Source: Oxyruncus cristatus
Taxonomy: Eukaryota > Chordata > Aves > Passeriformes > Cotingidae
Direction of reading: 5' to 3'
NCBI GenBank assembly: GCA_013399855.1
Contig: VXAY01005997.1
Location: 1 to 64,000 of the forward strand
DNA length: 64,000 nucleotides
The notes beneath the pieces are model-generated. The model saw only the letters and a program-made list of their open reading frames with translations. It was not told the DNA's origin and did not search any database. Shown here piece by piece: positions 1,061 through 41,353 of this stretch. Numbering within the stretch: position 1 is the first letter of the stretch; each line of letters begins with the position of its first letter. The translations under genes were made by a program, and so were the position numbers.

Positions 1061-3617
1061 AGGTTTTATTGATTTTGGCACTTTTAGGGCTGAAGGCAGA
1101 AGACCAAAGACCCTGATGTATAGGTTCCCTGCCATTGTGTTCTCCGAAAGTTTATGTACCAAAGTTTTGTAAAATATCTGCTACAAATCCCTACTGAAAC
1201 TAATTTTTTCAAGTAGGACAATTGTATGAACTGGAGGCACTAACACTGTTATTAGCCACGAACTTGTTGCAGTAAATGTTGAACAAAGAGTAGGAGGAGA
1301 AGCTTGGTGAAAACCTCCGTACTGATGTAGAATAATTTAATGGATTAATTTGATCTTTCTTTGATAATTATGTGTTGCATGATCAGGGTGGTCTTTCAGC
1401 TATTTCTCAAGTACAGTTTGAACGTGCCTTCTTCCCATCCTGCCACTTCAGAATGAGGAAAGGGGCAAAGTTACTGATATCAACCCTTTTATCTTTATTG
1501 GTCCTTTATTTTCTTTCACTTCTCTGCTCTCATGCCTTTCAGCATAAACAGCCTGTATCTCCTGGTATTAGCTGGCTGAATGTTCGGTAGGCTGTGCAGT
1601 CTCAGTAAAAGCTCTCAGAACAGCTCAGGTAGATGAAATTCAGCTGTTAAAGGCAGATGAAATGTGTGTCTCAGCTGTGCTTAAGAACTGACAAGTCTCT
1701 CCTGGTGGCTCCAGTTCGGGTAGATTTGTGATGTCAGACTTAACCTCAAAGACTAAAGATACTGCATCAAAAACTTCCTTAGACAAATACATTCAAAATA
1801 TTAAGGTCTCTTTTTAAAAACATTATTAAGCATTTTAATATCAAATTAGGGTATGTTAGTTCAGTGGGTGTTAATTTGTTCTGTTATTTGTGGTGCTTTC
1901 ACCTTCAGGCTCCTGTCAGTTGAAATGAGGTGAATATTTGTATGGATTTGAAAACATAAAACATTTTATTCCAATTAAGATACCTACTACTGACTATCTA
2001 GTAATCAATATTTTACCAGTGGGAGGATGCTGTTAGGATGTTGCTCTTGACATGCAAAGTACAAGCAAATAATTTACTCATTATAACATCAGTATATTGC
2101 TAATTGGCAACTTAAGTTAGCTCTGTTTGTTTTTTTTTTAACTTCAAATTATTTTACTTTCTTCCCACTCTTAACAATATTAGAGATTTAGAGCAATTTT
2201 TCTGAAGCTTTGGGTGATTTTTTCCCAGTTTCATTAACTGGACACTCATGGTCATGTTTACATTTTACTTCTTTTGCCTTTTTTAATACACTGTACAAAA
2301 AAAAAAAGTGGGCTTTTTTTTTTTGTTTGTTTGCTTTTTTTTTTAATTAGTCCTCCCAGCCTGGAGTGGGGGGAGAAGATTCAAGAGAGGAGGGGAATAT
2401 GAATAGGATCTAAAAGATTAAATGAAATGCTGTAAAAGGGCAAATATGCTTTTTACTGTGTCTCAACTGTCCAGACTTCCTGTTCAATAATGGCAAAATC
2501 AACAGAGGTCAAGCAGTGACAAGAAGGAACCTGGGGACTGGTGAAGGAAGAGCAGCATGTGTGAGAGTGTTTGAAATGTGGGCTTTGCCTGGGTGGTTTG
2601 TTTTCTGCCACATCCTGAGTGTCAGGTAAAGCAGGCTGCAGGCTGACAAAGGGAGATGGTTGGATCACCCAAAAGAATCAAGTATTAGAGTTCCCTGTGC
2701 AAGTTCGTGACTGTCATACAGTCCTTTCAAACAGAAACAAAACAATGCTTGATAAGGGATTTTTTTGATTTTTTTTTCATTTTGTTTTTAGGATTTTTTT
2801 AATATGTAGGTTGTTTGCATGGGTTCTTACCGCAAGTTAGCTCAATGTATATAGGTATCAGGTATAGGACTTTGGCTCACTAGGTTAAAAAAAACCCTGT
2901 ACTCCCACCTTTAAAAATTGTTTCCATCTTCTGTACGAGCCCACGATTTAAAATGACAAAATAAATCCTCCAACCACCCAGTCCTATCCAAACTTTTCTG
3001 ACTTTTCTTTGCAATATAATTTATAACGCTTAGCTTTGAAATTCAAGGAGATGGTACCTGCTACAAAAAGTGGAGACTTTCAAAATCCCTGGTGAAGACA
3101 TAACCCATGAATAGCAATGGGCTTTATGCCATGTGAAAATTTCTCAGGAGTCCTAGACATTCAGTCTTTCATTTTGTTTTCCTTTGGTGACATTTTTTTT
3201 GTTGTTTTCTTTTTTGCAAGTAATAGAGGTAGTGTATATGTTAGAAATTATTTTGTCAGTATGAGTTTTTATTCTGAAGATTTTAGATTTAACATTTATG
3301 TCTTGTGGTTGTTCAAGCAAAGAATGGCGAGATTTTCTGAGGAAAAATATAAGATAGCAGAATGCATACTTTTGTTTTCCCTTGAAGCTTTTTATTGTAT
3401 TATATATGATGGCCAGATTAGTCCTGAAGTCAGTGACCTCCCATGTAGGTGTGTGAGGGTAAACATGAGTATGACACGAAGGACATGAAGGATTCTAAAA
3501 ATAGAGCAAATTTGTAAGACAAGTTTAGAGTACTTTGCTCTTGCTGTGGGGTTTCGTTGAATTGTTTTTTCTCACAGTGTATGTGAAATGTTGAAAAATA
3601 AAACTGAAGAAGGATAT
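1061..3617. other. Non-coding stretch, probably SPON1 intron
   Basis: AT-rich sequence with T-runs around 2128-2140 and 2316-2345. A 123-codon open stretch at 3117-3488 has no signal, domain or splice context that supports a gene. I recognise no repeat here. Confidence 0.5.
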
Positions 3618-3622
3618 TCTGG

Positions 3623-4656
3623 TGTCATGGGTTCACTTGTTCTAAAAGAACTAAACATGGAATTTTCCCTTCCCCCTACCCCACTGTGTGGGAGGGATGT
3701 TTGAATGGGCAGATGGGTTTTGCCTTGGGTATTTGACTAACACAAAAGAACTGGCCAGTAGATTGACATTCCAGGCTGATAGCCTGGGGAGGGGCCAGGA
3801 GACTCTTTTCTTCGTTTTTTTTTCCTTCTCCAGGAGTGGAGGGAATGAGACACAGTTCGACACACAGTTTGTGCTTGCGGGAACTGAGGGAAGGTGTGCG
3901 TTGGAAAAGTGGGAAGGCTGCTTTGTTCTCAGCCTGGCTGGTTTGGTTTTTTTCCTTTTTTCCTCTTGCCCTGGCTTGCTGGCACCCTATTTCTACCCCT
4001 TTTCCCCCTTCCCGCGTGGGTGGACCTGCTTGGACTTCATCAGAGAGGAAGTATTTGGAGAGAGAGTCACTTTTGCTTCTCCCTCTCTCACTCCCGTGTT
4101 TTTGGCAGTGTTTTTTTGCACATGAGCAAAGAAAGGGGGAGTCACATGGCCAGGAGCAGACACCATGAGTCCCCTTTGGGAAGAATCCTTCTTTCTTCTT
4201 TTTCCCCTTCCCCATGAGGGGGAGGGAAGGGCTCCATTTCAGCTCCCCCAGCACACCAAGGGCCTCCACGTGGTGATACAGGGAGCCCAACAGCACCCCC
4301 TGTCAGCCAACCCTGAGCACTGCAGCCTTTGCACCTCCAAAGATCCAACAGCGCCCCCTGCTGACTGTGGTTAGAATTGCACCAAAAAGCAAAAACTGAA
4401 CTGTTTACTTTTCATTGGAAGGGATTTTGGGGTATAGGATTATTGTTCGGTTGGGGTTTTGTTTTGTGTTCTTTTGTTGTTCTGCCAATACACATAGATC
4501 CTTTAATAAAGGGCTGTTATTTTTTTTTCTTTCTCCACATTTTCTCAATTGGAACCTCTTAATTTTGGATTTACAATTGCTTAGAGGGAGGAGTTTTGGT
4601 CTTCCTTATAACTCATCCTCCTTAGCAAAACACTTCTGTCTCATTAAACTGAGACA
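3623..4656 (+). mobile_element. Solo LTR, family A (about 1.03 kb)
   Basis: The element begins TGTC and ends GACA, the inverted TG...CA ends of a retroviral LTR. Its limits are confirmed by comparison with the inverted copy at 40329-41348, which matches it in reverse complement over nearly its whole length. An AATAAA signal lies at 4505-4510, consistent with a plus-strand R region. No primer-binding site follows the 3' end and no gag/pol is nearby, so this is a solo LTR left by recombination. Open stretches inside it on both strands (up to about 200 codons) are LTR sequence, not genes. It lies in the same orientation as SPON1. Confidence 0.85.
4505..4510 (+). promoter_or_regulatory. LTR polyadenylation signal AATAAA
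   Basis: AATAAA inside the family A LTR, followed by a T-rich stretch (4520-4535). The same hexamer is kept in the inverted copy (TTTATT at 40473-40478 on the + strand), which supports it as the family's poly(A) signal. Confidence 0.6.
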
Positions 4657-17337: not shown

Positions 17338-20300
17338 AAGTTAATTTCTTTGCACAGTTTTCACAAATACTTTATAAATAGGGGTTTGACACATCTCAGT
17401 TGTGTCTATACAAAGATTAGGTCTGCTTCTAAAGCAACAGGGTCATGGGAAGAGTATGGGATGAAGAGCAAGTAGAGGTGCAGTTGTGGAAGGTTGCTCT
17501 GAATACTGGAAGAAGAGGCAGTGAATTTGGAAAAGAATGAAAATCATGTCTCTCTCTGCCTTCCCAAATCTGGGTTCATTGTCACTATGTGCCACATATT
17601 TGCAAAAAGGGGATATATTTATACACTGGATTCAAATCAGAGGTGATTGTGAATTTTAAAGTACATCAAATAGATAACTGGCTACAATTTCAGGGGCTGC
17701 TAAAATTGGACATGAAATTAATGAACATCTAAGTTAATTTCAACATCAGGATGTCTGATTGCAACAATCCTGCAATAATTCCCCAGATTCTCCTCATTCA
17801 GACTATCCAAGCAATGAACCAGTGTTATAACTGGATATTACCTACAACAGTGCGGCATATCATCAAATGCCGTAACATTTTCATTGAGTTTATTTGACTT
17901 TTTATTTCCTTTTAACATGTGCTTAAGCTGCACTAATATTTTTGAGAGCTTTTGAGGTAAAAATCTGCAACCAAGACAGCAGAGCTAGTAATGCCAGGAG
18001 CTAATTTACTGACATTTAAGTCAGGTTTTGAGTTTTTTTGTTTTTAAATTGTACTTTGTGCCTTGCAATATCCTTGCCTACCTTGAAATTTGACAGTGTT
18101 GTTTCCTTCCCCTCATGTCCCAGTCTACCTCAGGATCTATTTGCCTCTTTTCCATTTCTTATTCTGCCTTTCTTTCCCATATCTCTTGTCCTACCAGCCT
18201 TCTGTTGTGGGTTGATGGGAGGATGGAATTCACTAAGATCACGCTCCAAGCAGCTTTGATGTTTCTGAAAACACAAGAAAGGCAATTTCTGTGCTTTATT
18301 CTGATGCCTGGAGTCGGAGCTCTGTGCAGCATTTTCACAGTGGGTAATGCCCTTCTTACAGGGCCAGACTTGGATTTGGGAATCTGCTGTGTGCTGTGTT
18401 TTATAGGCAGTTTCTAAGGTGAATACATAGACATGTGTAACCAGTATCTGTGTCATTGACATTATCCAAGGTTTTATTAAAGAGAAAGAAAATCTGTCTG
18501 GTGATTTTTATGATTTATTACCAAAATAATACTGTGTATGAAACAAAAAAAAAAAAAAAAAGGTCTTTCCTTAAAGGAGCTTTGTTAAGAAGTGTTCTAA
18601 CAATTATGTCATTAACTAAAGATTCTTAAGCGTGAACATTTCTGCTCCCCATATGACAGACTGCTACATCATCATCAGCTTTTCTTCCTGACTAGGCACC
18701 TTTGACTGCTCTGATTTGTGTTGTTACTGTAAAGAGCCTGTGTGGGATTTTTCCATGGATGACCCTGGGTATTGTAAACTTGCTTTGTAGTTTGTTTATC
18801 TGGGAGAACTTAAAGGAACTAATCAGCCTTTTTGTTAAACTCTTCCTGGCAGCCTGAAAGGAAAGTCACAGCACATAAGAGTTTTACTAAAACAATCTGT
18901 CAAGTGGTTGATGTGTACAATAGGATAATTCATGCGTTATACTTCAGGGGTTATAAATGAGCAAACAAAGGATGGAAAAGGAATTATGTAAGGAAAAGAA
19001 TGTGCACTGACCTTGCAAATCTCTGAAATATATTCACACTTTTGCTTTTATTTAGAGGGTCTGACATCTCCAGAACATGTTATTTGATAAAATTACTTGT
19101 CAGAAACAAATACAGAATCTGAAAGGAAAATCAAATTGTGACTGGTGTTTAAACAAATGAACAAATACAGTTAAAACATGAATCAGAAGAAATAAAGTCT
19201 AGATGTCATATCCTATGCAGATGAATCAAGATAAAAATAGAGATGTTGATTTAAATATCTCACACCTTAAGAGAACTCATTTAGTTTTTCCTAATTATTT
19301 TAGAATAAATATTAAGTCATTTTGCCACCTTTTTTTCTTAAAACCAAGATAAGTAGTATTCTCTGCCTTGCCACCTTCTCCAGCAAGTTCAGTTTGTACT
19401 CTCGGCTTGTTCCCTATGGATACACAGGTGACATTCTTTTGGGTTTGGTTTAATGCTCTCTGAAATGTCAGTAAGTGAGATGACTTTTTCGATTGTCTTT
19501 AGTGGCCTGAGATGAAAGCTGACTGTGCCTCCAGACCTTTCAGAAGAGCAAGTTCTGCTTTCCAGGAAGACACTTGTAAAGTTTTTGATAATTTATGTGT
19601 AAGAATTGAAGATGAAACCTGAAACATAAAAAATATTCTATAGTACAAAATGTATGATTGCTACAACTCCATCCAAATATGATTCCATCCAAGCATTTGT
19701 CTTTACAAAATAGCTCTGGTATGGATTTTTTTTAATATATCCACATAATTTAAAAAAAAAAAAAAGAGAGCGTAAAAATTACAGTAAATTCTTTGCTGGA
19801 TTGATCCNNNNNNNNNNNNNNNNNNNNNNNNNNNNNNNNNNNNNNNNNNNNNNNNNNNNNNNTTTTTTTAATGGAGAAAAGTAATTTCAGTATTTCAGTT
19901 GAATAGTTACCATTTTATTACCTGTTTGGTAACACAGTGCTATATTCTTCCACAGAAGAATGGAGTCATTAGAGTTTTCTGACTCTAATGGTAAATCATC
20001 TGCATGATAAAGAGGAACCTGCAGTATATTGATCACTTTTTGCTGTAGTGCTGGGCAAATTATCATATTTACTGAAACAAGCTCAAAATTTTGCTTTTTG
20101 AATCACCTGTTATTGTGTGATTAGAGAAGTTAAAATTAGCCAGCCAACCAGGGAGGTTCAACTCAGTGGCACTTGGCTTGGCAGAACAGCTGAAAATTCT
20201 CCCTGAACTCTTTTAAGCCTAGGAGACAAAGACACCCATAACAATGTCTGACAATAAGGCTGCTTTGCACTTAAAAGCTGCAACTCCTGTTGAAATAGTT

Positions 20301-40059: not shown

Positions 40060-40064
40060 CATGG

Positions 40065-40249
40065 TGTCATGGGTTCACTTGTTCTAAAAGCTAAACATGG
40101 AATTTTTTTCCCTTCCCCCTGCCCCACTGTGTGTGTAGGGGGGAGTAGCGATGTTTGAATGGGCAGACTGGTTTTGCTGGGAGGCGGCTTTGTTCTCAGC
40201 CTGGCAGCCTAGCTGGTTGGCACGCTGTTTTCTGCCCCCTGCCCCGCCC
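40065..40249 (+). mobile_element. Left arm: partial family A LTR, plus orientation
   Basis: Starts TGTCATGGGTTCACTTG exactly like the solo LTR at 3623 and follows it to GGGCAGACTGGTTTTGC (about 40181). It then skips roughly 250 bp relative to the other copies and resumes at TGGGAGGC, with a GC dinucleotide shared at the break. It continues to CTGCCCCGCCC, where it meets the tRNA sequence. Only the 5' (U3) part of the LTR is present; no poly(A) signal region. Bases 40246-40249 (GCCC) belong equally to the LTR and to the tRNA. Confidence 0.85.
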
Positions 40250-40322
40250 AAGCTAGGTCAGTCGGTAGAGCATGGGACTCTTAATCTCAGGGTCGTGGGT
40301 TCGTGCTCCAAGTTGGGCGCCA
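40246..40322 (+). pseudogene. tRNA-Lys(CTT)-derived sequence including CCA (retroviral primer fossil)
   Basis: The sequence follows eukaryotic tRNA-Lys(CTT) end to end. It has the GCCC start, an A-box-like TAGGTCAGTCGG, anticodon loop CTCTTAA with CTT, variable region AGGGTCG, T-loop GGTTCGTGC, and a 3' TTGGGCG followed by CCA. Differences from the usual sequence are one extra base near position 5 and a few substitutions (for example TAGG for TAGC, and TCTCA for TCCCA in the anticodon stem). Encoded CCA is not found in nuclear tRNA genes, so it was copied from a mature tRNA. The reverse complement of its 3' end (TGGCGCCCAAC...) is the primer-binding site of a tRNA-Lys1,2-primed element. It is not a working tRNA gene. 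Confidence 0.9.
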
Positions 40323-40328
40323 AAATTA

Positions 40329-41348
40329 TGTCTAAATTTAATGAGACAGAAGTATTTTGCTAAGGAGGATGAGTTATAAGGAAAGACCAAAACTTCTCCC
40401 TCTAAGCAATTGTAAATCCAAAATTAAGATGCTCCAATTGAGAAAGTGTGGAGAAAGGAAAAATAACAGCCCTTTATTAAAGGATCTATGTGTATTGGCA
40501 GAACAACAAAAGAACACAAAACAAAACCCCAACCAAACAATAACTCTATACGCAAAAATCCCTTTCAATGAAAAGTAAACAGTTCAGTTTGCACTTTTTG
40601 GTGCAATTGTAACCACAGTCAGCAGAAGGTGCTGTGGATCGCTGGAGGTGCAGAGCCTGCGGTGCTCGGGGTTGGCCGACAGGAGGCGCTGTTGGGTTCT
40701 TCGGTCACCACGTGGAGGCCCCGGTGTGCTGGGGGAGCAGAAATGGAGCCCTTCCCTCCCCCTCCCCAGGAAGGGGGAAAAAAAAGGAATGAAGGGTTCT
40801 TCCCAAAGGGAACTCATGGTGTCTGCTGCTGGCCGCGTGACTTCCCCTTTCTTCGCTGGTGTATACAAAAACTGCTGACAAAAAACATGGGAGCTGGGAG
40901 GAGGGAAAACAAAGGTGGCTCTCTCTCTTACAAAAAAAAAATATAGTTCCTCTCCGATGAAGTCCAAGCAGGTCCACCCCGGGCAGGGCAGGGGTCAGAA
41001 AACAGTGTGCCAACCAGCTAGGCAGCCAGGCTGAGAACAAAGTAGCCTCCCAGCTTTTGCAACGCACCTCCTTCCCTCCATTCCCGCAACCACAAACTGT
41101 TTCTCCTTCCCCCCTCTCTGGGAGAGAGGAAAAAANNNNNNNNNNNNNNNNNNNNNNNNNNNNNNNNNNNNNNNNNNNNNNNNNNNNNNNNNNNNNNNNN
41201 NNNNNNNNNAAAAAAAAAAAAAGAAAATCCTAGCCCCTCCCAAAGCCATTTGCCTGGAATGTCAATCTACCAGCCAGTCCTTTTGTGTGAGTCAAATGCC
41301 CAAGGCAAAACCAGTCTGCCCATTCAAACATTGTGTCCCCCCCACACA
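40329..41348 (-). mobile_element. Right arm: family A LTR, minus orientation
   Basis: In the minus sense it matches the solo LTR at 3623-4656 from about 65 bases inside U3 to the U5 end, finishing TTTAGACA. Landmarks shared with the solo copy are the GGCGCTG/CACGTGG region (about 40680-40720), the poly(A) signal (TTTATT on + at 40473-40478) and the CTCAGCCTGGCTG stretch (about 41020). The first 60-70 bases of U3 are missing; the arm starts TGTGTGGGGGGG instead of TGTCATGGG. An assembly gap interrupts it at 41136-41209. A six-base spacer (40323-40328) separates U5 from the tRNA CCA. Confidence 0.88.
41136..41209. other. Assembly gap (N) inside the inverted LTR
   Basis: Seventy-four N between AAAAA and a run of A. 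It falls in the homopolymer part of the LTR that is a T-run in the solo copy (about 3814-3824). Both the homopolymer and the inverted-repeat structure may have hindered assembly. Confidence 0.99.
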
Positions 41349-41353
41349 CATGG

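Follow-up and report, generated by a model that had tools for sequence, protein, structure and literature searches.

Layout of the composite insertion

At positions 40065–41348 of the window, i.e. the whole stretch of 64,000 nucleotides analysed here, lies a composite insertion that forms a single unit of 1.28 kb between identical 5-bp repeats (CATGG). A partial U3 in plus orientation is followed by a complete tRNA-Lys(CTT) with its CCA, a 6-nt spacer and an LTR in minus orientation (Table 1), and the unit itself is devoid of an internal region. Comparison of the flanks revealed a match at n = 5 only among the lengths n = 3 to 8 tried, and random 5-mer pairs drawn from the window flanks matched in 0.16% of the draws.

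Both arms have two inverted blocks in common, of 74 nt (92%) and 46 nt (85%), and each carries deletions private to it, as judged against the solo LTR at 3623–4656 and eight family copies. In the left arm, whose final four bases GCCC are common to the tRNA, an internal U3 block of about 160–250 nt is absent, the size of which varies with the family copy compared, while the right arm is additionally interrupted by a gap of 74 N; the only other N run in the window is found at 19808–19862. The sequence-only reading of this stretch had described two inverted LTRs joined through a full-length primer tRNA. The arms are indeed inverted and of the same family, but the left one is 185 bp of U3 and the right one is short of 63 nt of U3. 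Its placement of a complete tRNA-Lys(CTT) with CCA at the primer-binding position of the right LTR was borne out by the ARAGORN call and by alignment with the primer-binding site (PBS) of a normal provirus of the family at C880 (L012/L017). This provirus reads GAGACA-TAATTT-TGGCACCCAACGTGGGGC-CCGAGAGAGG, with the same spacer as in the window and a tRNA match limited to the 18-nt PBS, in agreement with the further claim that normal proviral DNA keeps about 18 primer bases. An ordinary provirus would comprise two direct LTRs with an 18-nt PBS, and a solo LTR just one LTR; with its inverted arms and a tRNA of 76–77 nt, the insertion is neither.

Table 1 Features of the composite insertion, the yardstick LTR and further tRNA-Lys loci. 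Positions refer to the window unless another location is given.
Feature	Location	Strand	Basis
Solo LTR of the same family, yardstick; target-site duplication TCTGG/TCCGG (one mismatch)	3623..4656	+	similarity to right arm
Left target-site duplication CATGG	40060..40064	.	flank comparison
Left U3 arm, 185 bp, from the first base of U3 (TGTCATGG) to the tRNA junction	40065..40249	+	family comparison
Complete tRNA-Lys(CTT) including 3' CCA, 77 nt, one extra base	40246..40322	+	ARAGORN
tRNA position 58, T in place of A	40304..40304	+	comparison with reference tRNA
Spacer of 6 nt separating PBS from U5, TAATTT when read in LTR sense	40323..40328	-	same spacer in the C880 normal provirus
Right LTR (U5, R, U3), without the first 63 nt of U3	40329..41348	-	solo-LTR and family comparison
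Acceptor-equivalent site GCCCGG in right-LTR U3 (LTR sense)	40980..40985	-	calculated from LTR position 365, counted from 41348
74-N assembly gap within right LTR	41136..41209	.	window sequence
Right target-site duplication CATGG	41349..41353	.	flank comparison
L047: LTR with U5, spacer, complete tRNA-Lys (2914-2989), inverted U3	C987:318500-324500, feature 2543-3538		
L092: tRNA-Lys copy where a third LTR family has its PBS	C1155, 130-380		
L048: tRNA-Lys, CCA included, fused to leader sequence from a fourth LTR family	C1622, 2366-3620		

The LTR family and the origin of the tRNA

The LTR family is multicopy, as a search of the genome (1.04 Gb, 2279 contigs) returned 652 first-look candidates, 40 of which were scored. 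Its members are TG...CA LTRs that end in GAGACA and, where the start is readable, open with TGTCATGG or a near variant. The solo LTR used as yardstick, located 36 kb from the composite insertion, is 81% identical to the right arm over 863 aligned positions. Among seven family copies with both flanks read, the target-site duplication (TSD) was an exact 5 bp in five, 6 bp in one and 5 bp with a mismatch in one; the exact 5-bp TSD of the composite insertion is hence of the usual length in its LTR family.

A genome-wide pattern search with up to three mismatches located three U5-spacer-PBS sites of the family, namely in the window, at C880 and at C1902. The last of these (L093, C1902:1184200-1184400) consists of a family LTR with spacer that breaks off within the first bases of the PBS and gives way to unrelated DNA. 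The genome has 11 sites that match TTTTGGCGCCCAACNTGG with at most one mismatch; the tRNA continues in the window alone, and all ten other sites depart from the tRNA sequence directly after the PBS. The C880 provirus contains an open frame of 350 aa with 29 homologues, several of which are named Gag-like and one Fv1-like, exhibiting 79% identity to an uncharacterised Manacus candei protein and 72–82% identity over parts of several Pitangus sulphuratus proteins. The host is presumably a suboscine passerine. Five frames, this one included, gave no Pfam match. The element is a passerine endogenous retrovirus (ERV) LTR element, for which the 5-bp TSD together with the one homologue named Fv1-like suggests a probable ERVL-like affinity.

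The tRNA ends in GGGCG-CCA and is linked to the U5 of the minus-strand LTR via the family spacer, i.e. at the place of the PBS. Neither a pattern search nor a DNA query turned up a genuine tRNA-Lys(CTT) gene in the assembly, where tRNA-Lys(TTT) genes do exist, and a generic vertebrate tRNA-Lys(CTT) with CCA therefore served as reference; the window tRNA departs from it by six substitutions and one extra base, not all of which may be mutations, given that the reference is not from this genome. Rfam returned no match in the window at the gathering threshold, indicating that the decayed tRNA is visible to ARAGORN but falls below the Rfam cut-off. Inspection of 30 tRNA genes fetched from the genome revealed an appended CCA in none of them, the four CCA flags raised by the script being three tRNA-Ala ends and one off-register tRNA-Val rather than additions. 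In contrast, CCA follows the discriminator base in the window, and judged from this difference the tRNA segment is derived from a mature tRNA.

Further tRNA-Lys copies in the genome

A word-based search, which sets a lower bound, yielded at least four tRNA-Lys copies in the genome, namely the one in the window and those at L047, L092 and L048. Two of these four are complete at the 5' end, three are at a PBS place and two are joined to an inverted U3.

The LTR of L047 resembles that of L046, and its tRNA occupies the position of the PBS in L023, a similar element. The inverted U3 stems from a related LTR type, so that the arms of L047 belong to two LTR types; similarity to this second type starts at the last two tRNA bases and, by inspection, the arm extends to within about 20 nt of the start of that type. 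Ten subject loci were compared with L047, and in seven of them its U5 and U3 pieces fall within one LTR, in the opposite relative orientation. No TSD was seen at this locus. By its order of parts, L047 is a second case of the architecture found in the window, in another ERV group, and the architecture is apparently not unique in the genome.

At the two remaining loci, the tRNA copies join other DNA and no inverted LTR was shown. The tRNA of L092 lacks the five 5' nucleotides, contains small gaps and now has ACA in place of CCA. Family copies match up to the end of the LTR, with three continuing through the PBS, while the DNA beyond the tRNA was matched, except by its own locus, by none of the 44 matches listed (40 of 109 candidates scored). 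In L048, the five 5' nucleotides of the tRNA are not recognisable and the copy is located 65 nt beyond the LTR end, off the PBS; three relatives run on with leader sequence in its place. An inverted pair of RF00005 matches at L091 (C925:589600-590900) was considered as a further case and rejected, as it comprises only a pseudogene of tRNA-Phe and, inversely oriented at a distance of about 1 kb, a tRNA-like repeat, which presumably resembles a passerine tRNA-derived SINE.

Formation of the composite and comparison with known systems

The tRNA 5' end and U3 have GCCCGG in common exactly at the junction. Two prefix matches of at least 4 nt to the tRNA 5' end are present in the right LTR, of which GCCCGG is the longest and the one used. 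Since 302 of 2000 shuffled LTRs also contained a prefix match of at least 6 nt somewhere, the homology by itself is weak and becomes informative through its position where tRNA and arm meet. At its other side, the left arm runs to the first base of U3 (LTR terminal TG). Both arms are of one subfamily, whose marker CCTAGCTGGTTGGCAC they have in common with L005 alone among the eight family copies. By inspection, they differ at 6 of 74 sites, and relative to L005 the left arm has four private changes and the right arm two. As each difference is private to one arm, the arms may have been identical at birth; however, a common template is unproved, because the arm-to-arm distance (6/74) is no smaller than that of each arm to L005 (about 5).

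During reverse transcription, minus-strand DNA carries its tRNA primer and plus-strand strong-stop synthesis copies U3, R and U5; plus-strand DNA primed at the polypurine tract (PPT) starts at the first base of U3, which genomic RNA does not. According to PMC13191261, plus-strand copying normally takes 18 nt of the tRNA and halts before m1A58, a stop for which most knowledge comes from in vitro and cell-culture experiments, and unmodified tRNA-Lys,3 was copied to its 5' end in vitro. We consider it likely that the composite was made by read-through of the primer tRNA, a template jump into plus-strand U3 DNA and subsequent integration. Minus-strand DNA still carrying its tRNA would have served as the template, which would account for the order U5, spacer and whole tRNA. 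Plus-strand strong-stop synthesis would have reached the tRNA 5' end, either past m1A58 or on an unmethylated tRNA, and the nascent 3' end CCGGGC could then have annealed at GCCCGG in U3. The acceptor template was presumably PPT-primed plus-strand DNA copied to its end, because the arm stops at the first base of U3 and a genomic RNA template would have continued upstream. After a putative completion of the second strand, integrase would have joined the product by two U3-type ends, as the 5-bp TSD argues for joining at both of them. The absence of 63 nt from the right end may be explained by an internal TGTGTGG end having been used or by deletion between TGT repeats at a later time; the observed sequence is predicted by either.

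The essential steps had been anticipated by the sequence-only reading and found support in each case: read-through of the whole tRNA by the presence of all its bases, CCA included, at the position of the PBS, the template switch by the GCCCGG homology exactly where copying of the tRNA would run off, and integration in the form of a single DNA by an arm ending at the LTR terminal TG and by the TSD around the unit. A normal provirus with the same left junction, which it had named as counter-evidence, did not turn up in the genome. The possibility it raised of a one-off event holds for the window structure, found once in the genome (four candidates) with a 110-nt query covering the tRNA and both junctions, but not for the architecture, in view of the locus at C987.

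The acceptor U3 could have been part of the same molecule (snap-back) or of a sister molecule. In the first case, plus-strand strong-stop DNA would have primed itself on its own U3, and viral or host enzymes would later have opened the hairpin and copied it. A homologous acceptor in the same LTR subfamily and the common subfamily of both arms are in line with such an intramolecular read-through, which we nevertheless regard as rather unlikely, as a hairpin has one U3 end while the TSD implies two joined ends, and the two LTR types of L047 would need two molecules. A sister molecule is preferred on the same grounds and also because the tRNA-bearing minus strand then remains as partner strand.

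Later fusion of a normal minus-strand provirus with a plus-strand LTR by genomic deletion or inversion would account for the deletions in both arms, and a family solo LTR in the opposite orientation is found 36 kb away. However, the junction is placed exactly at the tRNA 5' end and CATGG flanks the composite as a whole. No normal provirus examined exceeds the 18-nt PBS, with ten of ten other sites diverging after it, and fusion could therefore not supply the other 58 nt of the tRNA, rendering this origin quite improbable. An assembly chimera, in which LTR copies and a tRNA were falsely joined near the N gap, might be suspected from the gap in the right LTR and from the multicopy nature of the family (652 first-look candidates). 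Yet both tRNA junctions are more than 800 bp from the gap (814 from the tRNA end), the LTR is collinear across it, the TSD matches on both sides, genome queries found this tRNA on no other assembly sequence, and the same plan recurs at a second locus; we thus judge an artefact highly improbable. Finally, a tRNA gene, pseudogene or tRNA-headed SINE beside, or hit by, two LTR insertions is hardly conceivable, for although other tRNA-derived repeats exist in the genome (the tRNA-like repeat of L091 and partial RF00005 matches at positions 6-65), the CCA adjoins U5 via the family spacer at the PBS place and the 5' end abuts U3, the tRNA genes of the genome are without CCA, a single TSD outside the LTRs encloses the whole unit, and genome queries revealed neither a tail nor a repeat family for this tRNA, with tRNA-Lys-like places elsewhere amounting to three distinct loci and one normal PBS. 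A head-to-tail circle type was also considered and rejected.

Position 40304, which is tRNA position 58 and the site of m1A58 in primer tRNAs, is a T in the window and an A in the tRNA copies of L047, L048 and L092; 29 of 30 tRNA genes of the genome contain the TTCRA motif. With 6 of 76 positions differing, the chance of a random change at position 58 is about 8%, and that of an A-to-T change about 2% by transversion count. m1A before G is reportedly misread with a low share of C, leaving T or G (PMC4787781), and T58 is suggestive of a misread scar of m1A58. We first of all note that, because three of the four tRNA copies keep A, T58 is consistent with copying past m1A58 but no demonstration of it, and the case for a scar is weakened accordingly. 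In addition, the ERVs covered by PMC7472051 are reported to carry PBS changes that do not coincide with modified tRNA positions, a mild argument against frequent misread scars.

More broadly, we tentatively propose, with some doubt, that read-through followed by a jump into a second plus-strand U3 could recur in birds as an alternative way for retroviral reverse transcription to end. It would yield linear DNA with two U3 ends that integrase accepts, and leave datable LTR-tRNA-inverted-LTR fossils, some of them with a misread m1A58 in the germline. As a germline fossil of a failed m1A58 stop, the composite would indicate that integration and inheritance of the failed product are possible; it would also represent an unusual integrase substrate with two U3-type ends. 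Should such fossils prove common, the failure rate of the stop could be counted across host lineages and ERV groups, and the fossils could serve as unique, hard-to-reverse markers for bird phylogeny and as a DNA record of the chemical modification of ancient tRNA.

An earlier description of a germline LTR-tRNA-inverted-LTR insertion was not found in the literature, covered mostly at the level of titles and abstracts and with subscription papers largely outside, which is weak evidence of absence. With this proviso, the integrated inverted form is new, while its outline is well explained by read-through and template switching. The step proposed for the window, copying to the tRNA 5' end, is seen in plus-strand products that extend past A58 in the absence of m1A58, as presented in PMC13191261; in contrast to the integrated and inherited window product, these are laboratory HIV-1 cDNAs, described there as unusable for normal transfer. 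The primer over-extension sequence of lentiviruses and spumaviruses described there constitutes a virus-side trace of copying past the PBS, but comprises a few nucleotides instead of a whole tRNA and no inverted arm.

Two cases of reverse-transcribed tRNA are closer in kind, both as described in PMC12220202. In a circular MMLV DNA reported by Colicelli and Goff in 1986 (J Virol 57:674), tRNA-Gly is placed between the LTRs and, as in the window, reverse-transcribed tRNA is joined to LTR ends; however, that circle was unintegrated and its tRNA-Gly, not the normal primer, is without the first four bases, whereas the tRNA in the window is that of the primer and comes with an inverted U3 arm and a germline integration with TSD. 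In 2025, Gurgo and Franchini reported an HIV provirus with reverse-transcribed tRNA-Gly and deletions, which likewise carries tRNA cDNA at the provirus end. By the same account, this tRNA is not the viral primer and was self-primed in the authors' model, with neither direct repeats at the tRNA ends nor an inverted LTR. Lacking the first four tRNA bases, the MMLV and HIV cases are nearer to L048 and L092, where five nucleotides are missing, than to the composite in the window (PMC12220202).
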